From Candidatus Thiosymbion ectosymbiont of Catanema sp. Cochon2018 (GTDB lineage Bacteria; Pseudomonadota; Gammaproteobacteria; Chromatiales; Chromatiaceae): DNA of 64,000 nucleotides. The stretch lies in NCBI GenBank assembly GCA_011392765.1, contig WYCW01000004.1:884205-948204 (forward strand), given 5' to 3'. The stretch's first letter is position 1. Every line of letters starts with the position of its first letter. The translations under genes were made by a program, and so were the position numbers. The notes under the pieces were generated by a model. That model was not told where the DNA came from. It worked only from the letters and a program-made list of their open reading frames with translations, and ran no database searches. Positions 31,175-56,778 of the stretch are shown here, piece after piece.

Positions 31175-31442
31175 CACAGGAGGGGCCTTCTGGGGCGTGT
31201 TGACATTTAATAAGGAGTAAATCCCAACCTCCGCGCTCGTCTTCTAATGGTACAGGATTTCCAGGATTAACAGGGTGTTATAATTGTTACTTAAGAAAAT
31301 AACCCTGTGAATCCTGTATCATTAGGAGACAGACCCGGAGGTCAGGACGTGTTGCGGGACTTGGCGGCGCAGATTGGGACGGCAATCCCCGGTAAGATGT
31401 GCGGACAAGTGGCATTGTGAAACCGAAGATAATCGATTAACG

Positions 31443-32309
31443 ATGGAATACCGCAAAATCAATCCACCACAAGCACTTCCCCTTGATGATTCGATAATTA
31501 TCGAAGGAGATGCGCTATATGCTCTTAGGACGCTTCCTGAACGATCGATACGGTGTGCAGTAACCTCACCTCCTTACTGGGGGCTACGGGACTATGGGAT
31601 TGATTGTCAAATAGGTTTGGAAACCAGCTTACCCCGATTCTTAAACCACCTTGTTGCAATTTTCAATGAACTGAAACGGGTCTTGCGTGATGATGGAACC
31701 CTGTGGTTGAATATTGGTGATGGTTACACCAGTGGTAACCGTGGTTATCGCGCAAGCGACAGGAAGAACCCTGCAAGGGCAATGTCGGTAAGACCTGATA
31801 CCCCTGAAGGCTTGAAACCCAAAGATCTTCAAGGTATCCCCTGGAGACTGGCTTTTGCTCTTCAGGATAATGGTTGGTATCTGAGAAGTGATATTGTTTG
31901 GCATAAGCCTAATGCCATGCCGGAAAGCGTTAAGGATAGACCCACGAGGTCGCATGAATATTTGTTCATGCTTACCAAGTCCGAACGGTATTACTACGAT
32001 TATGAATCGGTTAAAGAAGTGGGCTTAAATGGAAAGCTTCGCAATCGTAGAAGCGTATGGAGTATTAATACACAAGGTTTTCCCGGCGCACACTTTGCTA
32101 CCTTTCCGACCCGATTAATTGAACCCTGTATTCTGGCATCCACTCGTCCTGGTGATTATGTGCTTGACCCGTTTTTCGGTTCAGGAACCGTAGGTGTTAC
32201 ATGCCTGGAGCTACATAGAAAATATATAGAACTTAATCCTAAATATATCGCATTGGCAATAGATAGACTAAGTGCTGCGGAAGACAGCGTTATAAAGATT
32301 GCTGTTTGA
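31443..32309 (+). CDS. site-specific DNA methyltransferase, beta-type (motif IV TSPPYWG, motif I DPFFGSGTV)
   Basis: GDALYALRTLPERSIRCAVTSPPYWGLRDYG...DIVWHKPNAMPESVKDRPTRSHEYLFMLTKSERYYYD...DYVLDPFFGSGTVGV. Confidence 0.93.
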   Translation: MEYRKINPPQALPLDDSIIIEGDALYALRTLPERSIRCAVTSPPYWGLRDYGIDCQIGLETSLPRFLNHLVAIFNELKRVLRDDGTLWLNIGDGYTSGNRGYRASDRKNPARAMSVRPDTPEGLKPKDLQGIPWRLAFALQDNGWYLRSDIVWHKPNAMPESVKDRPTRSHEYLFMLTKSERYYYDYESVKEVGLNGKLRNRRSVWSINTQGFPGAHFATFPTRLIEPCILASTRPGDYVLDPFFGSGTVGVTCLELHRKYIELNPKYIALAIDRLSAAEDSVIKIAV

Positions 32310-32318
32310 CGTTTGACA

Positions 32319-32803
32319 TGAATATTCCGATACCAGAACTACAGATAGACTTTTCTTTTGCCCTTGGGCAAATTAGAAGCGTGTATCTTCAAGACGCACT
32401 GAGCAAAACCTTAGATAGTATAGATCTTCCTGTCCTTGATAATCAGCTTTCTCGGTATGTGCCCCAGGATAATCTGAAGACACTTGCTAAGCGGGGACTA
32501 CGTGGCGAATTGGTTTTCCCCGTGCCATGTATGTTGGAAGCAAATCCCTTTCTGTTGGGTTATTACCGGTTGTTGATGGGGTTCAGCCAGAAAGAGTTTT
32601 ATACGACGAAGTTTGGTGTTTCCAGCTTCAAGTCAATGGAAGTAAAAGGAACGTTAACTGATAGCAACAAGGATAGATTACCTCAACTATGTGAAGGTAT
32701 GGTTGGCAGTGCATGTGCCCTACTTGATGGAATCGGGATTGATGATGAGTATGAAGACTTCAAAAACCGGGTGATTGCCCTTACCGGCATCAAGACCGAA
32801 TGA
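32319..32803 (+). CDS. putative type II restriction endonuclease, possibly truncated (XcyI/XamI-like suspicion)
   Basis: Directly follows and overlaps the MTase; FPVPCMLEANPFLLGYYRLLMGFSQKEFYTTKFGVSSFKSMEVKGTL; only ~161 aa. Confidence 0.5.
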
Positions 32804-32808
32804 GATAA

Positions 32809-33567
32809 TTGTCCGATTGGATAGCTGGGCCTATCGTTAAGAAATACAAGAAACCAACCATGGACATAAAGGCAATCGTCGAGAGAAACGATACCATACC
32901 AGGTCGCATATTCGATCTGGTGGTACAAATGCTGATTGTGCTCTCTATCGTCACGTTTTCCGTGGAAACCTTGCCCGACCTCGATACCGGTACCAGAGAG
33001 CTGCTTGAGATTACGGAAGTAATCATAGTAATAATATTCACGCTCGAGTATTTGCTCAGGCTGTACGTGGCGGAGAAAAAGCTGAGTTATGTCCTGAGCT
33101 TTTACGGGGTTGTGGATTTGATCGCGATCCTTCCGTTTTACATTTCATCCGGCGTTGACCTGCAATCGGTAAGGATATTTCGGATGTTACGCTTTTTTCG
33201 CGCGATCAAGCTGTTCCGATACAACAAGGCCATGGGGAGGTTTTTACGGGCGTTTGCGATCATAAAGGAGGAGATTATTCTATTCACCGTGGTAACGGCA
33301 ATGCTTTTGTACCTATCGGCCGTCGGGATTTATTTTTTCGAAAACGAGGCCCAACCGGAGGCATTCAAAAGTATTTTCCATAGCTTATGGTGGGCCGTCG
33401 CCACTCTGACAACAGTGGGGTACGGCGATATTTATCCCGTAACGATAGGCGGCAGAATATTTACCTTTGTCATTTTAATGATCGGTTTGGGTATAATCGC
33501 CGTGCCGGCAGGGTTGCTGGCGTCCGCGCTGTCGAGGGTCAGCATGGAAGATCATGAGGAAAAATAA
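32809..33567 (+). CDS. voltage-gated-type potassium channel / ion transporter
   Basis: TLEYLLRLYVAEKKLSYVLSFYGVVDLIAILPFY...RIFRMLRFFRAIKLFRYN...LWWAVATLTTVGYGDIYPVTIGGR. Confidence 0.92.
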   Translation: MSDWIAGPIVKKYKKPTMDIKAIVERNDTIPGRIFDLVVQMLIVLSIVTFSVETLPDLDTGTRELLEITEVIIVIIFTLEYLLRLYVAEKKLSYVLSFYGVVDLIAILPFYISSGVDLQSVRIFRMLRFFRAIKLFRYNKAMGRFLRAFAIIKEEIILFTVVTAMLLYLSAVGIYFFENEAQPEAFKSIFHSLWWAVATLTTVGYGDIYPVTIGGRIFTFVILMIGLGIIAVPAGLLASALSRVSMEDHEEK

Positions 33568-36870: not shown

Positions 36871-37416
36871 ATGCCCGACGGTTGGCTGCCCCAAGCCCGG
36901 CGCGCGCCCTCTCCCAACTGGGACGAACGCCCACCGAATACGGCCGTAGACCTGCTGGTGATTCACGGCATCAGCCTGCCGCCCGGGGAATTCGGCGGCC
37001 CCTGGATCGATGATCTGTTCCGAAACCGCCTCGACCCGCAGGCCCATCCCTGTTTCCAAGCGATTGCCCAACTGCGTGTCTCCTCTCACCTTCTCATCCG
37101 CCGCGACGGCGAGCTGATTCAGTACGTGGATCTCCACCACCGCGCCTGGCACGCGGGGGTCTCGATCTTCCAGGGCCGTGAGGCCTGCAACGACTTTGCC
37201 ATCGGGATCGAGCTGGAGGGGGCGGACCTGATTCCCTACGAGGAGGTTCAGTATCGGGTCCTGGCCCGAACCACGCAGGATATTCAGTCCCGCTTCCCGG
37301 CTATCGGTCGGGGGCACATCGTCGGTCACAGTGACATCGCACCCGGCCGCAAGACCGATCCGGGACCCGCCTTCGACTGGGAGTACTTCCGCAGGCTCGT
37401 CGAGGCCGAGGGTTGA
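36871..37416 (+). CDS. ampD: 1,6-anhydro-N-acetylmuramyl-L-alanine amidase
   Basis: RPPNTAVDLLVIHGISLPPGEFGGPWIDDLF...RAWHAGVSIFQGREACNDFAIGIELEG...HIVGHSDIAPGRKTDPGPAFDW. Confidence 0.96.
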   Translation: MPDGWLPQARRAPSPNWDERPPNTAVDLLVIHGISLPPGEFGGPWIDDLFRNRLDPQAHPCFQAIAQLRVSSHLLIRRDGELIQYVDLHHRAWHAGVSIFQGREACNDFAIGIELEGADLIPYEEVQYRVLARTTQDIQSRFPAIGRGHIVGHSDIAPGRKTDPGPAFDWEYFRRLVEAEG

Positions 37417-37463
37417 GGGCGGTGGCCACACAGCCGCTATCCTCTGGCACAGCAGTAGTACGA

Positions 37464-37694
37464 ATGATGAATGATGTCTTAGCGCAGGCGCCTGTGGTGC
37501 TTTCGGAAAGCGGCAGGGCGGAACTCGCATACGATCTTTTGGCTGGCCTCGACGTAACTCCCGACTCCGGTGTTACACAGGCATGGGAAACGCAGATCCT
37601 GCGGCGTCTGGACCAAGTAGACGATGGGATGGCCAAGCTAATCGACCGGGAGGAGCTTCGCCGTCGGATGCGCATCCGCATGACCGGTGCTTGA
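37464..37694 (+). CDS. addiction module antitoxin (RelE/ParE-associated)
   Basis: VLSESGRAELAYDLLAGLDVTPDSGVTQAWETQILRRLDQVDDG; adjacent to ParE-like ORF. Confidence 0.75.
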   Translation: MMNDVLAQAPVVLSESGRAELAYDLLAGLDVTPDSGVTQAWETQILRRLDQVDDGMAKLIDREELRRRMRIRMTGA

Positions 37695-38171
37695 TGCGAT
37701 CGGTCAGGGTTCTCGAGGCCACCGCCGATGAAGCAGCCGAGGCTGCATCCTGGTACGAACGCCGACGTCTTGGACTCGGCGTAGAGTTCCAACAGGCAGT
37801 TGATGCAGTGCTCGATCTTCTGGAAGACGAGATCGTTCCCCTTGCATCTGTTCCGGGTACCGCTGGAAAATGGGGCGCGAAACGTCTCCTACTCAGAGCC
37901 TGTCTGGCTTACGACTGTTCTACTGCGGAATCGGGGAGACCGGTCAGATTTCCCCCTCGATTTCGTTAAATAGATCCACTATTCGCCTCAATCGAGCGCA
38001 AAATTTGCCTCGGCCCCTCGATCCCTCGCTACGAACGCGTAAACTAGACAGACTCTCAAACGATTTCCCTTCTCTGTAATCGTTCGTGAACAGGGCTCTG
38101 AGTTTCTCGTGATCGCCTTCGCTCACCATTCGAGACGTCCAGGATACTGGCGTGACCGGCTTATCACATAA
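37694..38171 (+). pseudogene. ParE/RelE-family toxin disrupted by a MITE
   Basis: MRSVRVLEATADEAAEAASWYERRRLGLGVEFQQAVD...GAKRLLL + (after the element) KRFPFSVIVREQGSEFLVIAFAHHSRRPGYWRDRLIT*. Confidence 0.9.
37896..38055. mobile_element. 160-bp MITE with TCA (T-N-A) duplication
   Basis: TCA-gagcctgtctggcttacg...cgtaaactagacagactc-TCA. Confidence 0.87.
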
Positions 38172-38380: not shown

Positions 38381-40906
38381 ATGTCACAGGTTGAGTATCC
38401 CTCAGAAGCATTGTATGAGGTTGGCCAGGAACTCGAAACGATTCCGGTTCGCATCAGCTACGAGATCATTCGGCTTTTTTCAGAGGGGCTCTATCAGAGC
38501 CCCCACAAAGCCATTGAGGAACTCGTAAGCAACGGATACGACGCCAAAGCACGTCGTGTTCATGTTTTGCTTCCGGAGACACCCGAGGAAGATAACGTTC
38601 CACTACCGTCATTGTGGGTCATCGACGATGGTCGTGGAATGGATGCAGAGGGATTTCGTCAACTCTGGCGCGTCGCGTATTCCGCTAAAGCAGATGTACC
38701 TCAGCAGGACGATGACCGGCTACCGATTGGCCAGTTCGGTATCGGAAAACTCGCGGCCTACGTCTTGGCATGGCGGCTTACTCACATCAGCTGCATCGAC
38801 GACAAGATCCTGTTGACCTCGATGAATTTCCGAGAGGTCTCCGGGAAGCATCAGTTCAACCCGATCGAGCCCCTCCAGCTCGTTTTGCGTGAGATCGACG
38901 AGCAATCGGCCAAGCACTACCTCGGGGATATCGAGCAACGAGACCCTAAAGCCTGGGAGTTCATGTTTGGTAAACACAGGGCAAAGACATGGACGGCGGC
39001 TGGACTGTCTGATTTCAAGGACCTTTACAACAAACTCTTGGTCGGTCGACTAAGATGGGTGCTGGGTACTGGCCTGCCCCTCCACTCGGACTTTCGGATC
39101 TGGCTCAATGGTGATCGATTGGCCTCCAGCAAGGAACGGCTCGAACCGATTCTCGAGGTAGATATTGGTGGAAACGAGGACACCGCGGCATCTCGTCTCG
39201 ATCTTGAGCGACACGAGGCCGGGGGCATTGTCATTCCGGGAATCGAGGGCCCGGTGCAGGGTACCGCGAGGATTGTCGAGAGGCCCTTGACAACGGGCAA
39301 GTCCGAGCAATATGGGCGCAGTCACGGCTTCTTCGTCCGCGTCCGTGGCCGGGTCATCAATCTCGAAGATGAATTGTTCGGGCTCGACGCCCAGAACCAC
39401 GCCGCCTGGTCCCGCTTTTCGATGGAGATCGAGGCCGATGGGTTGCGGGACCATCTCCTCTCGTCGAGAGAAGGGGTCAGGGAATCCGAACCCATTCGAC
39501 TATTCCGAAAGTATCTTCATCAAGTCTTCAATATCTGCCGCAATGCCTATAACGAATGGAATGAGCGTCAGCTTACCGGTCTGGACATCGAACAGCTTCT
39601 GTCGGATGCGCCGAGCATCTTTGTGACCGACCCCCTGTTGCAGGGCGTTCGGCATACGGTAGAGACCGGCTCGGAATCCTTTTATCTCTCTGTCCCACGA
39701 CTGCCTGCTGAAGCAGTGCCCACGGAATGGCTCGACAGCTACGAGCAAGAGATCGCCCACAGTCCAATCCAGCAAGTGCTCTTCGAGTCGACCGGTCGGT
39801 ACGACCGTGCGCTTCGCTATCTGCCGGAGACACGCACATTGATTGTGAACCAGGAGCATCCGTTCGTGGACAAGTTGCTCGCCGGTAGCCCAAATCGGAG
39901 GTCCGCAATGCTCTTCGGGTCTTCGGAAGTCCTCATGGATGGCCTTCTCCATAACCACGGCGTCTCCCGGTCGGTCATCATGGACTTCTTGGGTGATCGT
40001 GATCGCGTCCTGCGCCTACTCGCCGGCGATTATCCGTCGACAGCCGCGGAGGTCTTGCGCCTGCTCGAAGTGGCGAATCAGAGTGAAAGCGCGTTGGAGC
40101 GGGCGGTTGGAGAAACTTTCCGCGTCCTCGGGTTCGAGTACGAGCGAAGAGGAGGCAACGAACCTGGTCCAGACGGTATTCTCTATGCGCGCTTGGGCAG
40201 AGACAGCGATTCTCTGGCCGACTATAAGCTCGTTTACGATACCAAGCAGACAAACCGGCCGTCGGTTCCGGCGGACAAGATCAATCTACAAAGTCTGGAA
40301 GACTTCCGAAGCAAGGAAGGCGCCCATTTCGGTTTCTTCGTTGCCGATGCTTATATGGGGGAAAACGATCCGGATGGAAAGCTGAATCGCCTCGCCACCC
40401 AAGCCACGACCGATAGATATCCACCACAGCCTGTGACATTGCTCAAGCTAGAGCATCTGCGGCGGATCGTGGAGTTGCACTACCGGTATGGGGTCACCCT
40501 CACACGACTCCGGTCTCTGTTCACTGATGCCCATACCGTCACCGATGCCAAGGTATGGGTCGGCGACCTCGAAAGAGAGTTGTCCGAGCTGGAACCCATG
40601 GTCCCGCTGGGATTGTTACTCACCGGCATCGAGAAGTCGAAGACCGATGAGAAGGCGCGGCCGAACGTTTACAGTGTTCGAATGGTTGACGAGCGTCTGA
40701 GGGCGTTCACACCGGAGCGACTCATCGCTGCCCTGCAGGCGGTCGAGACGATTGTCGGTGAGAGGTGGTTGGAGGTGGAGAAGAGCGGCAACGTCCGACT
40801 ACACCACAGCACCGAGCAGGTCCTGGCCGAGGTCCAGCGTAATCTTCACGACCTCTTCGGGCCTGATACCGGCATTGATGCGCTCAATCATCCTATTGCA
40901 AGCTAA
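38381..40906 (+). CDS. GHKL-type ATPase fused to a PD-(D/E)XK nuclease-like domain
   Basis: N-box AIEELVSNGYDAKA, G1 WVIDDGRGMDAEGF, G2 IGQFGIGKLAAYVLA; C-terminal LGFEYERRGGNEPGPDGILYARL...LVYDTKQTNRPSVPADKINLQSLEDF. Confidence 0.82.
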   Translation: MSQVEYPSEALYEVGQELETIPVRISYEIIRLFSEGLYQSPHKAIEELVSNGYDAKARRVHVLLPETPEEDNVPLPSLWVIDDGRGMDAEGFRQLWRVAYSAKADVPQQDDDRLPIGQFGIGKLAAYVLAWRLTHISCIDDKILLTSMNFREVSGKHQFNPIEPLQLVLREIDEQSAKHYLGDIEQRDPKAWEFMFGKHRAKTWTAAGLSDFKDLYNKLLVGRLRWVLGTGLPLHSDFRIWLNGDRLASSKERLEPILEVDIGGNEDTAASRLDLERHEAGGIVIPGIEGPVQGTARIVERPLTTGKSEQYGRSHGFFVRVRGRVINLEDELFGLDAQNHAAWSRFSMEIEADGLRDHLLSSREGVRESEPIRLFRKYLHQVFNICRNAYNEWNERQLTGLDIEQLLSDAPSIFVTDPLLQGVRHTVETGSESFYLSVPRLPAEAVPTEWLDSYEQEIAHSPIQQVLFESTGRYDRALRYLPETRTLIVNQEHPFVDKLLAGSPNRRSAMLFGSSEVLMDGLLHNHGVSRSVIMDFLGDRDRVLRLLAGDYPSTAAEVLRLLEVANQSESALERAVGETFRVLGFEYERRGGNEPGPDGILYARLGRDSDSLADYKLVYDTKQTNRPSVPADKINLQSLEDFRSKEGAHFGFFVADAYMGENDPDGKLNRLATQATTDRYPPQPVTLLKLEHLRRIVELHYRYGVTLTRLRSLFTDAHTVTDAKVWVGDLERELSELEPMVPLGLLLTGIEKSKTDEKARPNVYSVRMVDERLRAFTPERLIAALQAVETIVGERWLEVEKSGNVRLHHSTEQVLAEVQRNLHDLFGPDTGIDALNHPIAS

Positions 40907-42072
40907 TGGCATCTACTCCGGTACATCCGTTCCCGGCCCGTATGGCTCCGGAGGTCGCTCGGCGATCTCTGGAACGCCTCCGTGGTCGGAAAAGGGTAAT
41001 CGATCCGATGTGTGGCTCAGGGACGGTCCTCAGGGCCGCAGTCGAACGAGGACTGAATTGCACAGGAATCGACATAGACCCATTGGCGGTCTTGATGTCT
41101 CGCGTGTGGACCACTGCGCTGCCATCGTTCCGCCTGCTCCATGATGCCCACAGGCTATTGCGCGAGGCGCAAGGGTTACCCGAACGCGATGTGGCGCGAG
41201 CGAACGACCTGGAGACGCGGGCCTTCATCGACTATTGGTTTGCCGAGCGCCAGGCGGAGCATTTGGCCCGGCTCGCGACAGTGCTGAAGAATATCGATTG
41301 GGACACCAGGGACGCCCTGGCAATCGCCTTCAGTCGGATCATTATCTCCAAGGAACGGATGGCCTCCCTCGCTCGCGATACCTCACACAGCCGACCTCAC
41401 AAGGTCGCCGACACAAATGACTTCGATGTCTACTCCGGCTTCCTCAACGCCGCACGTCTCGTAGCGAGACGGCTCGAACCACAGCGGATCCGGGGGAACG
41501 CTTCGGTTCGAGTCGGGGATGCGCGCATACTCGATGAGGTTCCGGATGAAAGCTTTGACTTCGCATTGACGTCACCTCCGTACCTGAACGCCATCGATTA
41601 TTTACGTGGTCACCGGATGACCCTCGTATGGCTGGGCTACGATATGGCGTCAATAAGGGAAATCCGAACAGCCAGCGTCGGATCGGAGAGGGTGCTCGGG
41701 GCGACGGGAATTACATTCAGCATCGATCCATACATCGTTGAGGCCAAGGGTTCCACGATCACTGATCGGCATCGCGGTTGGGTGCGCCGCTATGCAACCG
41801 ACATGCGCCGGGTGCTCGAGCAGCTTAGCCGCGTTGTCCGACCCGGGGGAAAGGTCGTGTTGGTGTTGGGCAACTCGTTCCTCCGTGGCGCGACCATTGA
41901 TAACGCTGGGATGACCAAAGCGTTGGCCGTAGAGGTAGGCCTCGAGCCCATTCGGCAAACGACTAGAGCCATCCCGGCTCGTCGACGTTACCTCCCGCCA
42001 CCGGGAGACAGCGGGAACACCCTGGATGCTCGTATGCGAACGGAGGTTGTTCTCTCGATGCGGGTAGCGTAG
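40906..42072 (+). CDS. DNA methyltransferase (motif I DPMCGSGT, motif IV TSPPYLNAIDYLRG)
   Basis: HPFPARMAPEVARRSLERLRGRKRVIDPMCGSGTVLRAAVERGLNCTGIDIDP...TSPPYLNAIDYLRGHRMTLVWLG; start overlaps the ATPase stop. Confidence 0.9.
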   Translation: MASTPVHPFPARMAPEVARRSLERLRGRKRVIDPMCGSGTVLRAAVERGLNCTGIDIDPLAVLMSRVWTTALPSFRLLHDAHRLLREAQGLPERDVARANDLETRAFIDYWFAERQAEHLARLATVLKNIDWDTRDALAIAFSRIIISKERMASLARDTSHSRPHKVADTNDFDVYSGFLNAARLVARRLEPQRIRGNASVRVGDARILDEVPDESFDFALTSPPYLNAIDYLRGHRMTLVWLGYDMASIREIRTASVGSERVLGATGITFSIDPYIVEAKGSTITDRHRGWVRRYATDMRRVLEQLSRVVRPGGKVVLVLGNSFLRGATIDNAGMTKALAVEVGLEPIRQTTRAIPARRRYLPPPGDSGNTLDARMRTEVVLSMRVA

Positions 42073-44214: not shown

Positions 44215-45144
44215 ATGAAGACATTTCACAACATTAATGTGCCGCATCCGTTCCCCTATCAAGGTAGTAAACGGAGCATTGCGAAGTATATTCTCCCCTA
44301 TTTCCCTTTTAATGTCCGATGCCTGATTGAGCCATTTTGTGGTGCTGGAGCAGTCTCTATTGCTGCTGCTGCCCATGGTCTTGCAAAGCGATTCGCACTG
44401 AATGATCTTAACAAACCTCTAATGGAGTTGTGGATAGAAATTCTAGAACGGCCAGAATTATTGTGTGACGAATATGAAAGGCAATGGCTGGAACAATACC
44501 CAGATAGAAAATCGTATTTTTTCAAGGTACGGGATGAGTTCAATACAACTCATAACCCACATCAGTTGCTTTACCTGCTTGCTCGAATTGTAAAGGGGTC
44601 TGTTAGGTATAGCTCCGATGGCCTATTCAACCAAAGTGCTGATAACCGTCGCTCAGGTATGCGGCCAAACACTATGAGGCAAAACATTTTTGGCGTATCC
44701 GCGCTGTTGGCCAGAAAAACGACTATTTCCGCAGTAGATTTTCGTAAAGCCGTAAAAAAAGCAGAAAATAATGATTTAGTTTATATGGATCCACCCTATC
44801 AAGGAACATCATTTACTAGAGATCATCGCTACTTCAATGGTCTGTCTTATGATGACTTCGTCGATGTCCTTGTGCTTTTGAATGAGAAAAACATCTCCTA
44901 CATAATCAGTTATGATGGTGTTACTGGTAATAAAAATCATGGCAAACTGCTTCCAAATAGTCTTTCCCTACGTCATCTACATATTCATGCCGGTAGGTCG
45001 AGCCAAGCCACGCTTCTTGGTAACAGCCACAAAACCATTGAATCGTTATATTTGTCTTCATCTTTAGTTCATCGTTTGGAAAGCGAGAAATCCGCTAGAA
45101 AGGGCTATGAAGAAAAAGTACAGCAAGAGCTTGTGCTTATATGA
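44215..45144 (+). CDS. D12-class (Dam-like) N6-adenine DNA methyltransferase
   Basis: HPFPYQGSKRSIAKYILPYFP...LIEPFCGAGAVSIAAAAHG...NDLVYMDPPYQGTSFTRDHRYF. Confidence 0.94.
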   Translation: MKTFHNINVPHPFPYQGSKRSIAKYILPYFPFNVRCLIEPFCGAGAVSIAAAAHGLAKRFALNDLNKPLMELWIEILERPELLCDEYERQWLEQYPDRKSYFFKVRDEFNTTHNPHQLLYLLARIVKGSVRYSSDGLFNQSADNRRSGMRPNTMRQNIFGVSALLARKTTISAVDFRKAVKKAENNDLVYMDPPYQGTSFTRDHRYFNGLSYDDFVDVLVLLNEKNISYIISYDGVTGNKNHGKLLPNSLSLRHLHIHAGRSSQATLLGNSHKTIESLYLSSSLVHRLESEKSARKGYEEKVQQELVLI

Positions 45145-45875
45145 CAAAGCAGAATTACCCCCCGGAGTTTCTGAAACTGCTCAAGAGCGTTGATGCTAAG
45201 CGCCCTAAAACGGTTATTGACCATATCCTGAAACATGGGCAAATAACAACAGAGGAACTGAAGGACACTTATGGGTATAACCATCCACCCCGCGCGATAA
45301 GGGATGTCCGTGAACAAGGCATTCCTATTAGAACCTTCCGTGTTACTGGGTCTGATGGCAGAAAAATAGCAGCCTATAGGTTCGGCGATCCTTCGGAAGT
45401 GCGTGCTACCCAACTATCTGGCCGCACAGCATTCTCATCAAATCTTAAGGATACTCTGATAGAGGAATACGGACCACGTTGCAATATTTATCTTGAGCCT
45501 TTCCCTGTTAGAGAGTTGCAGATTGATCACAGAGTCCCGTTCGAAATCATCGGGAACAATGGCAACCTTTCTGATGATGTTAGTGAATACATGCTGTTAT
45601 GTGCCTCTGCAAATAGAGCAAAATCATGGAGTTGCGAAAATTGCGCAAACTGGAAAGATAAGTATGTAAATATCTGTCGGTCGTGTTATTGGGCATATCC
45701 AGAATCGTACACGCATATTGCCATGCGAGATGTACGAAGGCTTGATCTCTTATGGTCGGGTGAAGAAGTGACCGAATATGACACGCTTATTGAAGAGGCG
45801 GCCAAGGTGCAGGAAGAAGCGCCAGAATACGTAAAAAATGTACTCCGTAACCATTTCAAACGAAAAAGCAGCTAA
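45141..45875 (+). CDS. HNH-type restriction endonuclease
   Basis: overlaps MTase by 4 bp; EEYGPRCNIYLEPFPVRELQIDHRVPFEIIGN...EYMLLCASANRAKSWSCENCANW. Confidence 0.85.
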   Translation: MTKQNYPPEFLKLLKSVDAKRPKTVIDHILKHGQITTEELKDTYGYNHPPRAIRDVREQGIPIRTFRVTGSDGRKIAAYRFGDPSEVRATQLSGRTAFSSNLKDTLIEEYGPRCNIYLEPFPVRELQIDHRVPFEIIGNNGNLSDDVSEYMLLCASANRAKSWSCENCANWKDKYVNICRSCYWAYPESYTHIAMRDVRRLDLLWSGEEVTEYDTLIEEAAKVQEEAPEYVKNVLRNHFKRKSS

Positions 45876-53667: not shown

Positions 53668-56600
53668 ATGTGGGCCATGTCAGAACCGGACATCCCCCCC
53701 TTTCCCGAAGATAGCGTCCCTGGGGCCGAGTCGGCGCCGGCCGTTCCCGCCTATCCCGAGGAGGCCGCCTACGGGACCGAGAACCTGCGGGTTCCCCCCC
53801 ATTCCATCCAGGCGGAACAGTCCCTGCTTGGCGGCCTGATGCTCGATAACGAGACCTGGGACAAGATCGCGGACAAGGTAGCGGCGGGTGATTTCTACCG
53901 CCGTGAGCACCGCCTGATTTTCGAGGCGATCATACGACTGGTGGATGGCGACCAGCCCTTCGACGTCGTCACCCTGGCGGAGACCCTGGAGCGAACCGGA
54001 AATCTCGAGGATGCGGGCGGTCTCCCATACCTGGGTTCCATTGCCAAGGATACCCCGAGCGCAGCCAATGCGGTGGCCTATGCCAAGATCGTGCGCTTCA
54101 ACTCGGTGCTGCGGCAGCTCATTCACGCGGGCACGGAGATTGCCGATCTGGCCTACAATCCGGGGGATCGACCGGACAATGAGATCCTCGACGAGGCGGA
54201 GCGGCGGGTATTCGAGATCGCCGAGCAATTGGCGCGCGGTGGCGGTTTTAAGGAAATCAAATCGCTCCTGGTCACGGCCATCGATCGTATCGATCGGCTC
54301 TACAACAGCGATCAGCAGATTACCGGGCTAGCGACGGGGTTCCCGGATTTCGATGAGAAGACCTCGGGGCTCCAGAACTCGGACCTGATTATCGTCGCGG
54401 GCCGGCCTTCGATGGGGAAGTGTGTTCAGGCCGACACCGAAATCCTGCTGGAAGACGGCAGCCTGGAGACGATAGAAACCATCTGCCGCCGCAAGCGCGC
54501 ACGTCTCCTGTCGTTGGATCGGCACTGGAAGCTCGGACTGACTTCCCCTGTGGCCTATGTCGACGATGGAAAAAAACCGGTCTTTCGCATAACGACGCGC
54601 TTGGGGCGATCCATCGAGACCACCGCTACTCACCCCTATTGCACACCTTCCGGATGGCGGCCACTGGCGGAGTTGGCGGTCGGGCAACCCATTGCAGTCC
54701 CGCGGAGATTGCCCGTATTCGGCACCGAGAGCATGGAGGAATGCCGGATAAAGCTGTTGGCGTACCTGCTGGGTGACGGCGCCTTGACCCGATCCGCACC
54801 GAGGTTCACCAATCGGAACCCACGCATTCAGGCAGATTTTACCGCTGCCGTCGAGTCTTTTGGTGGGGTACGCGCTACCTTGCGAGAAAGACATGACCGG
54901 ACGCCGGATATCCTCATCGCGGCAGACGGGTCCCGGATCCAGGAAAACCGTCGCCGGTTTGCGGCCCGCCTGCGCAGAACGCTCGACGCATCACCCTACT
55001 CCGATCGCCGATTCGCTTACGCCATCGGCGCGTCCGCGGCGAGTGTCTGCAACTGGACTAGTACTTCGTTTCTTCATATTTTGCATATATCCCGTAGGGT
55101 GGGCTGTGCCCACCATCTGGGCTGTGCCCACCATCTGGGCTGTGCCCACCATCTAGGCACAGTATCGGTGGGCGTAGCCCACCCTACGGATTTGAGCATG
55201 AAAAATAAGGTGAAACGGGGTACTAGGGGCAACACGATTCCGGGAGAAACCCTGTATCGTAAGATCTGTGCCTTTTTCGACACTGAGGATGGTACTTGGC
55301 TGCCCGCGGGGCGCGACAGTGCAGCCAAGAACACACCGAACCCCCTCACCCGTTGGCTCGGCGAACTGGGCGTCTGGGGCAGAGATGCGCACACCAAGTC
55401 CATCCCGGATTGTGTGTTCCGTCTGCCCCGGACCCGGCTCGCACTCTTCATCAATCGTCTCTTTGCCACCGACGGTTGGGCGAGCCTGCTCGCAAACGGT
55501 CAAGCGCAGCTGGGCTATGCGTCGGTCAGCGAACGCCTGATACATCAGCTACAACACCTCCTGTTGCGGTTCGGAATCATCGCCAAGCTGCGTAACCGGA
55601 CAGTTACGAACGGCGGAAAAGAGTTCATCGCATTCCAACTCGATATTACGGATGCCGAATCCATCCGAGCCTTCGTATCGGAGATCGGAATCTTCGGTAA
55701 GGAAGATGCGCTATCTCGGGTAACGGACGCAATCACCAAAAAACGCTATCAGACGAACTGCGATCTGATTCCCCTCGAATTCTGGGACCAAATCGCCGGT
55801 ACTAAAGGAGATGAGCCCTGGAGCCGCCTCGCAAAACGCGCAGGTTTGGCTGGTACGAGCAATATCCATGTGGGCCGACGTTCACTCAGCCGGTCGCGGC
55901 TCGGGCGTCCGGCGATGGCCTTGGGGGATCGAGACCTGGCAGATCCGGCGACCAGCGATGTCTATTGGGACGAAATCAGGGCCATCCGGTATGTGGGACA
56001 TAAACAGGTCTATGACCTCACGATCCCCGACACGCATAACTTCGTTGCCAATGACATCTGCGTACACAACACCGCCTTTGCGATGAACATCGCGGAGAAC
56101 GTGTCGGTAGAGACGCAGCGCCCGGTGGCCGTATTCAGCATGGAGATGCCGGGGGAGGCCTTGGCCATGCGCATGATGTCGTCGCTGGGTCGGATCGATC
56201 AGCACCGGGTACGCACGGGCAAGCTGGAAGAAGACGAATGGCCGCGCCTGACCTCGTCCGTGAACATCCTGTCCAAGACCAAGCTATTCATCGACGATAC
56301 ACCGGCCCTGTCGCCGACCGAGGTGCGCGCCCGCGCGCGCCGCTTGAAACGCGAGCACGACGACCTGGCGATGATCGTCATCGACTACCTGCAACTGATG
56401 CAGGCCCCCGAGGCACGCGAGAATCGGGTGGCGGAGATCTCGGCTATTTCACGGTCCTTAAAAGCACTGGCCAAGGAACTCGACATTCCCGTCGTCGCCC
56501 TGTCCCAGCTCAACCGCAGCCTGGAGCAGCGACCCAACAAGCGGCCCATCATGTCGGATCTGAGGGAATCGGGCGCCATCGAGCAGGACGCAGACCTGAT

Positions 56601-56778
56601 CGCGTTCATCTACCGGGATGAGGTCTATAACGAAGACAGCCCCGACAAGGGCATCGCCGAAATCATCATCGCCAAGCAGCGCAACGGCCCCATCGGGACC
56701 ATCCGGCTCACCTTCCTCGGCAAATACACCAAGTTCGAGAACTACATCGCCGATGTCTATCAGGAACAGGGTTATTGA
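53668..56778 (+). CDS. dnaB: replicative DNA helicase DnaB with intein
   Basis: PHSIQAEQSLLGGLMLDNETWDKIADKV...IIVAGRPSMGK|...|TAFAMNIAENVSVETQRPVAVFSMEMPGEALAMRM... Confidence 0.98.
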   Translation: MWAMSEPDIPPFPEDSVPGAESAPAVPAYPEEAAYGTENLRVPPHSIQAEQSLLGGLMLDNETWDKIADKVAAGDFYRREHRLIFEAIIRLVDGDQPFDVVTLAETLERTGNLEDAGGLPYLGSIAKDTPSAANAVAYAKIVRFNSVLRQLIHAGTEIADLAYNPGDRPDNEILDEAERRVFEIAEQLARGGGFKEIKSLLVTAIDRIDRLYNSDQQITGLATGFPDFDEKTSGLQNSDLIIVAGRPSMGKCVQADTEILLEDGSLETIETICRRKRARLLSLDRHWKLGLTSPVAYVDDGKKPVFRITTRLGRSIETTATHPYCTPSGWRPLAELAVGQPIAVPRRLPVFGTESMEECRIKLLAYLLGDGALTRSAPRFTNRNPRIQADFTAAVESFGGVRATLRERHDRTPDILIAADGSRIQENRRRFAARLRRTLDASPYSDRRFAYAIGASAASVCNWTSTSFLHILHISRRVGCAHHLGCAHHLGCAHHLGTVSVGVAHPTDLSMKNKVKRGTRGNTIPGETLYRKICAFFDTEDGTWLPAGRDSAAKNTPNPLTRWLGELGVWGRDAHTKSIPDCVFRLPRTRLALFINRLFATDGWASLLANGQAQLGYASVSERLIHQLQHLLLRFGIIAKLRNRTVTNGGKEFIAFQLDITDAESIRAFVSEIGIFGKEDALSRVTDAITKKRYQTNCDLIPLEFWDQIAGTKGDEPWSRLAKRAGLAGTSNIHVGRRSLSRSRLGRPAMALGDRDLADPATSDVYWDEIRAIRYVGHKQVYDLTIPDTHNFVANDICVHNTAFAMNIAENVSVETQRPVAVFSMEMPGEALAMRMMSSLGRIDQHRVRTGKLEEDEWPRLTSSVNILSKTKLFIDDTPALSPTEVRARARRLKREHDDLAMIVIDYLQLMQAPEARENRVAEISAISRSLKALAKELDIPVVALSQLNRSLEQRPNKRPIMSDLRESGAIEQDADLIAFIYRDEVYNEDSPDKGIAEIIIAKQRNGPIGTIRLTFLGKYTKFENYIADVYQEQGY
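54421..56070 (+). other. intein in DnaB Walker A (~550 aa, LAGLIDADG-type)
   Basis: N-terminal CVQADTEILLEDGS, block B TTATHPYCTPSGW, motifs KLLAYLLGDGAL and LFINRLFATDGWA, C-terminal VYDLTIPDTHNFVANDICVHN|T. Confidence 0.96.
55061..55223. mobile_element. 163-bp MITE inserted in frame inside the intein, TA duplication
   Basis: C-TA-gtacttcgtttcttcatattttgcat...atgaaaaataaggtgaaacggggtac-TA-G; same family as 13092-13547. Confidence 0.9.

Follow-up and report, generated by a model that had tools for sequence, protein, structure and literature searches.

Results

A GHKL-nuclease gene overlaps a methyltransferase gene

We analysed a window of 64,000 nucleotides from Candidatus Thiosymbion ectosymbiont of Catanema sp. 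(contig WYCW01000004.1), in which two consecutive genes encode a GHKL ATPase fused to a nuclease (gene 1) and a SPPY methyltransferase (gene 2) (Table 1). The junction of the two genes reads AGCTAATGGCA, where the last A of the TAA stop codon of gene 1 is also the A of the ATG of gene 2 (TAATG, a one-base overlap). An earlier note on this DNA had described both reading frames, their motifs and the overlap of stop and start codons, and we recovered all of them at exact coordinates; these include the SPPY motif and the three boxes of its GHKL assignment (with the N-box read there as EELVSNGYDA, residues 46-55), which holds. By Pfam, no helicase domain was detected in either protein, and hence not the SF2 motor of type I and type III restriction-modification (R-M) systems. 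Beyond its ATPase domain, gene 1 is covered by no model of Pfam, PADLOC, NCBIfam or PHROGs. Promoter and terminator scans gave sites no commoner than in shuffled sequences.

Table 1. Features of the gene pair (positions in the window)
Feature	Residues	Positions	Strand	Support
Gene 1, GHKL ATPase-S5-linker-PD-(D/E)XK nuclease-C-terminal helical domain, putative restriction subunit	841 aa	38381..40906	+	ORF, Pfam, AF2 pLDDT 86, relatives
GHKL N-box IEELVSNGYDA	45-55	38513..38545	+	E46, E47, N51, D54 invariant in 52 sequences
GHKL G1 box DDGRGM	82-87	38624..38641	+	D82, G84 invariant (52-sequence alignment)
GHKL G2 box GQFGIGK	117-123	38729..38749	+	G117, F119, G120, G122, K123 invariant (52-sequence alignment)
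S5/middle (transducer) region, boundary approximate	approx. 200-400	38978..39580	+	Foldseek, hhalign, alignment
PD-(D/E)XK nuclease domain (E573, D598, D620, K622)	568-704	40082..40492	+	conservation, AlphaFold, Foldseek, profiles
C-terminal helical domain	705-841	40493..40903	+	AlphaFold secondary structure
Gene 2, SPPY amino-methyltransferase, putative modification subunit	388 aa	40906..42072	+	ORF, Pfam, PADLOC, motifs
Methyltransferase motif I DPMCGSGT	33-40	41002..41025	+	D33, P34, M35, G37, S38, G39 invariant in 30 sequences
Methyltransferase motif IV SPPY	223-226	41572..41583	+	invariant in 30 sequences

Domains and active sites of the two proteins

The N-terminus of the gene 1 protein was recognised by Pfam as HATPase_c_3, with 57.7 bits for a cut-off of 25, and the protein has the N, G1 and G2 boxes and the Bergerat fold of a GHKL ATPase. 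In the S5/middle region, R363 is invariant and K307 is found in 48/52 sequences. When the full-length AlphaFold model was submitted to Foldseek, its ATPase-middle fold matched the ATPase and middle structures of TRAP1/Hsp90, MORC2 and MORC3. This monomer model has a pLDDT of 86 and a pTM of just 0.49, which makes the placement of its domains relative to each other uncertain. The invariance of the key residues of the three boxes suggests that ATP binding is under strong selection.

The C-terminal half of the protein belongs to the PD-(D/E)XK superfamily by its active site as well as by its fold. The AlphaFold model of residues 550-841 (pLDDT 92.5, pTM 0.89) contains a canonical PD-(D/E)XK core, in the order helix-strand-strand-strand-helix-strand. 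GPDG (residues 596-599) holds D598, and YDTKQ (residues 619-623) holds D620 and K622. In an alignment of 71 sequences, we observed E573 in 97%, D598 in 97%, D or E at position 620 in 100% and K622 in 99% of them; position 620 is D in 36 and E in 35, and this near-equal exchange with K622 kept is the signature expected of PD-(D/E)XK enzymes. A second alignment gave 52/52 for E573, 51/52 for D598, 52/52 for D/E620 and 51/52 for K622. HindIII (E 3.5e-4, prob 1.00) and Nt.BspD6I (prob 1.00) occupied the top ranks of the Foldseek search, with EndoMS, Hjc and other PD-(D/E)XK enzymes below them at weaker E-values. HindIII was also recovered by a sequence profile, independently of structure (E 6.6e-4), and Mrr_cat is matched by 17/52 family members (best 1.2e-5). 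The nuclease that the earlier note had read from GPDG...YDTKQ is thus backed by a fold found in the AlphaFold model, by Foldseek and by profiles. In the last ~140 residues helices predominate; three of them, together with a two-strand hairpin, could as modelled resemble a winged helix, which would make this domain a candidate DNA-binding part and possibly the reader of the target site.

Gene 2 encodes a SAM-dependent methyltransferase according to Pfam, and PADLOC models of type II methyltransferases match it over almost its full length (2e-32). It was not matched by any C5 methylase model; instead, amino-methyltransferase models of both Pfam and PADLOC matched. The domain make-up of the two proteins as computed comes with conserved active sites, which are intact in both. 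We tried to approach the methylation type through M.DraR1 of D. radiodurans, but the methyltransferase match on plasmid CP1 was not tied to M.DraR1; we therefore infer the mark of gene 2 from the type of its SPPY motif alone, by which N4-methylcytosine is most likely.

Relatives are rare, widespread and mostly paired with a methyltransferase

A single-sequence search of genome contigs with the gene 1 protein found nothing. Relatives were then gathered with a three-sequence profile of gene 1, using one genome per species, and the best 80 of 185 were kept. Among these best 80, bacterial carriers belong to Gammaproteobacteria, Actinomycetes, Thermoanaerobaculia, Spirochaetia, Bacteroidota, Gemmatimonadota, Verrucomicrobia, Chloroflexi, Planctomycetota, Clostridia, Nitrospirales, Armatimonadetes, Omnitrophota and others, and archaeal carriers to Methanophagales, Methanoperedens, Halobacteria, Woesearchaeota and Micrarchaeota. 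The protein of the window sits in a close clade of 47-59% identity, and a long relative was present in one other genome among 274 of the class of the window; the family is rare within any single lineage. Phyla are mixed in the gene 1 tree, which points to horizontal transfer. Cultured carriers include Nitrospira moscoviensis (L083) and Actinomadura nitritigenes (L113). A single relative (L119) came from viral contigs.

Since the profile scan used gene 1 alone, the presence of gene 2 provides an independent test. A homologue of the methyltransferase of the window lies within 200 bp of 58/70 full-length GHKL genes, a count obtained with looser cut-offs than the earlier 54/71, which had missed at least L119. 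In these 58 pairs the methyltransferase is on the same strand, downstream (39) or upstream (15), or on the opposite strand (4). The two genes are commonly spaced by -4, -1 or a few bases, and overlaps of 1-4 bases are frequent. By gene clustering, the methyltransferase was found in 68/83 loci; leaving aside the GHKL protein, no other family was present in more than 10. In downstream-type pairs, the trees of GHKL and methyltransferase agree (r = 0.86, 0/2000 permutations, n = 37); the upstream-type methyltransferases are more distant, with 20-29% identity to that of the window. The two genes are thus co-inherited, and the nuclease gene is paired with a modification methyltransferase as in type II R-M systems. 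The earlier note had called for a survey of the pair, and this is its outcome. The 12/70 genes without the pair include one at a contig edge (L082), one with a truncated methyltransferase (L114), one with a 5mC methyltransferase just upstream (L117), two with a small ORF of the methyltransferase cluster on the other strand (L078, L094), and about seven full-length relatives with no adjacent methyltransferase of the gene 2 family (L048, L062, L088, L099, L106, L116, L118).

Broken copies and neighbouring genes

In the decaying copy L007/L103, the DxK part of the nuclease core is gone and the methyltransferase is still open; in L114, the truncated methyltransferase is accompanied by replacement of the catalytic lysine by R. 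Broken copies are very few and partly come from MAGs, but their pattern of decay fits what may be expected of restriction-modification. L108 (8001-8931) is a remnant in which an internal deletion across both genes has fused GHKL residue 209 to methyltransferase residue 245.

Type I R-M genes are found beside the pair in six relatives (L039, L060, L061, L066, L073, L081). An hsdM-hsdS set lies directly upstream of the pair in L060, L061, L066 and L073, and its ends touch the pair in L060 and L066; a merged system is possible. In Flavobacterium (L065, 6718-13922; L105, 6717-13930), an upstream-type methyltransferase, the GHKL-nuclease, a second GHKL protein with a histidine-kinase-like C-terminus and a 407-aa protein are adjacent, and these four-gene arrays link the family with the HEF_HK/Response_reg_2 elements (PMC8011034). 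A close relative of the methyltransferase (43% identity) also lies next to, and divergent from, a methyltransferase/GHKL-histidine-kinase operon without GHKL-nuclease in L035 (2189-9191) and L151 (3298-9700).

The window itself contains a second complete-looking type II R-M pair (44215-45875, +), 2.1 kb downstream of the gene pair, made of a D12 adenine methyltransferase (44215-45144) that overlaps a 244-aa protein matching PADLOC REase_II PDLC03566 (1.9e-55); its local GC content of ~44%, for ~60% around, indicates that it was probably acquired. At 6.1 kb upstream of the gene pair, an N6_N4_Mtase gene (31374-32309, 158.6 bits) is followed by an ion-channel gene, in a stretch (31374-33567, +) that is also low in GC. 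The D12 and N6_N4_Mtase genes are the two further methyltransferase genes that the earlier note had placed nearby. It had also seen a broken toxin-antitoxin module: an antitoxin (PF09720, 37413-37694) is indeed present, and the overlapping ORF that follows (37413-37969 for both, +) has no domain recognised by Pfam, so that a decayed toxin is plausible and not proven. Further downstream, a LAGLIDADG-containing intein splits the gene of the DnaB replicative helicase (53668-56778, +).

Discussion

Interpretation of the gene pair

We propose, with a probability of about 0.72, that the two genes together form a type II-like restriction-modification system gated by ATP. The R-M-like reading already given in the earlier note is the best one. 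That note had named two refuting outcomes, a missing nuclease fold at GPDG...YDTKQ or a pair that is not kept together in other genomes, and we observed neither: the nuclease fold is present and the pair is kept in 58/70 relatives. The pair is most probably a defence module of this kind, presumably directed against phages or plasmids. In such a system, the methyltransferase would mark the host chromosome at a specific site. The gene 1 protein would dimerise through its GHKL-S5 module, which, on binding ATP, would close as a clamp on DNA and bring the two PD-(D/E)XK domains together; DNA lacking the mark of gene 2 would then be cut by gene 1. ATP gating of gene 1 is a well-founded prediction.

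The leading rival is a type II R-M system of the ordinary kind, independent of ATP: the GHKL module would serve as a scaffold for dimerisation, and cutting would need no ATP hydrolysis. The two-gene layout, the HindIII-like nuclease and the methyltransferase partner would suit it, and the HgiDII family, with the same ATPase module, is called a restriction enzyme family by NCBIfam. However, the key residues of the ATP-binding motifs are all invariant in 52 diverse members, which is unexpected for a scaffold, and in VcSduA mutation of the ATPase leads to loss of defence (PMC12137116), so that we regard an ATP-independent enzyme as unlikely.

A stand-alone nuclease, of the Shedu/VcSduA kind or acting by abortive infection, would be triggered by a phage cue, and the methyltransferase would only protect host DNA from accidental cuts or be a separate orphan. 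VcSduA, which combines GHKL and PD-(D/E)XK, does work alone (PMC12137116), some relatives lack the methyltransferase, and related methyltransferases (43%) occur without the GHKL-nuclease beside a GHKL-histidine-kinase operon. Strong co-inheritance with the methyltransferase and the absence of DUF4263 among the families listed for the 52 members nevertheless make this explanation improbable. We give still less credit to a MutL/MORC-like protein of DNA repair or DNA structure, for which methylation would be a strand or self mark unrelated to defence: the ATPase-middle fold would agree with it, and such roles of MORC/paraMORC proteins were discussed by Iyer et al. (PMC2292703), but the sporadic horizontal spread, the dedicated methyltransferase, the restriction-enzyme-like nuclease and the R-M neighbours all speak against it.

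Beyond the two-gene R-M reading of this locus, a tentative and rather doubtful extension is that the family may represent a widespread restriction class, in which a GHKL clamp, and not a helicase motor, surveys or slides on DNA and a HindIII-like nuclease fires only where the mark is missing. If true, GHKL-clamp restriction would be an ATP-dependent two-gene mechanism outside types I-III, and a module occurring from actinobacteria to archaea would tell self DNA with the kind of ATPase found in MutL, Hsp90 and eukaryotic MORC. It would also offer a small two-protein model of how GHKL clamps govern a nuclease and react to methylated DNA, and a fresh source of restriction enzymes and methyltransferases. 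In the literature searched, we found no experiments on any member of the gene 1 family, and PADLOC-DB 2.0.0 holds no full-length model for it.

Comparison with known systems

The HindIII, Nt.BspD6I and Mrr nucleases share the fold and the E-D-(D/E)xK site with the nuclease domain of gene 1; to our knowledge, none of them has been reported to carry a GHKL ATPase on the same chain.

A similar layout is that of HgiDII/BbrUII (NCBIfam NF050001; PADLOC REase_II PDLC03419), in which the nuclease is likewise on the ATPase chain and the methyltransferase gene is adjacent. Homology extends over the GHKL+S5 module (residues 17-398, hhalign P 99.7), whereas the two nucleases have no detectable kinship (hhalign P 0.1) and the HgiDII/BbrUII partner is a 5mC methyltransferase, as known for M.HgiDII and M.BbrUII (PMC5867850), in place of the SPPY amino-methyltransferase of the window. 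The gene 1 protein scores only 41.3 bits against NF050001 (cut-off 550), over residues 36-153 only; a Campylobacter protein of HgiDII/BbrUII type reaches 336 bits. On these grounds, we rejected membership for nuclease and methyltransferase and kept it for the ATPase module. Identity with PADLOC REase_II PDLC03419/PDLC03485 was also rejected, members of our family matching by the N-terminal ATPase only; in genuine proteins of the HgiDII type, the match covers most of PDLC03419.

VcSduA (Shedu type I-D, formerly paraMORC3) is a GHKL-DUF4263 fusion that protects against phages, and its ATPase mutant E27A and nuclease mutant K557A each abolish defence (PMC12137116). Like gene 1, it carries a GHKL ATPase and a C-terminal PD-(D/E)XK nuclease on one chain, but its nuclease is DUF4263 and it has no methyltransferase partner. 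At E 0.1, DUF4263 was not matched among 52 members (25/32 families listed), 17 of which match Mrr_cat instead; on the families listed, we rejected membership of Shedu/VcSduA. Iyer et al. reported in 2008 that prokaryotic MORC/paraMORC GHKL+S5 ATPases accompany methylases and nucleases (PMC2292703); most of these operons also bring in an SF2 helicase as well as separate nucleases, whereas the system of the window has two genes. In the HEF_HK/Response_reg_2 elements (PMC8011034), a protein with an N-terminal HATPase_c_3 GHKL domain also stands beside methyltransferases, but its C-terminus is a histidine-kinase-like ATPase and that of gene 1 a nuclease.

A two-gene GHKL-nuclease R-M system is therefore not new in itself, given HgiDII/BbrUII, and a GHKL-nuclease fusion exists in the single-gene VcSduA. 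The earlier note had singled out the compact two-gene form with both activities on one chain as worth testing; in that respect it is preceded by these systems, and what stands is the difference in nuclease lineage and methyltransferase class. New here are the HindIII/Mrr-like nuclease lineage, the amino-methyltransferase class and a family with no full-length model in PADLOC, NCBIfam or Pfam. With so strong a general precedent, what is novel is how these parts are combined and how widely the combination occurs.
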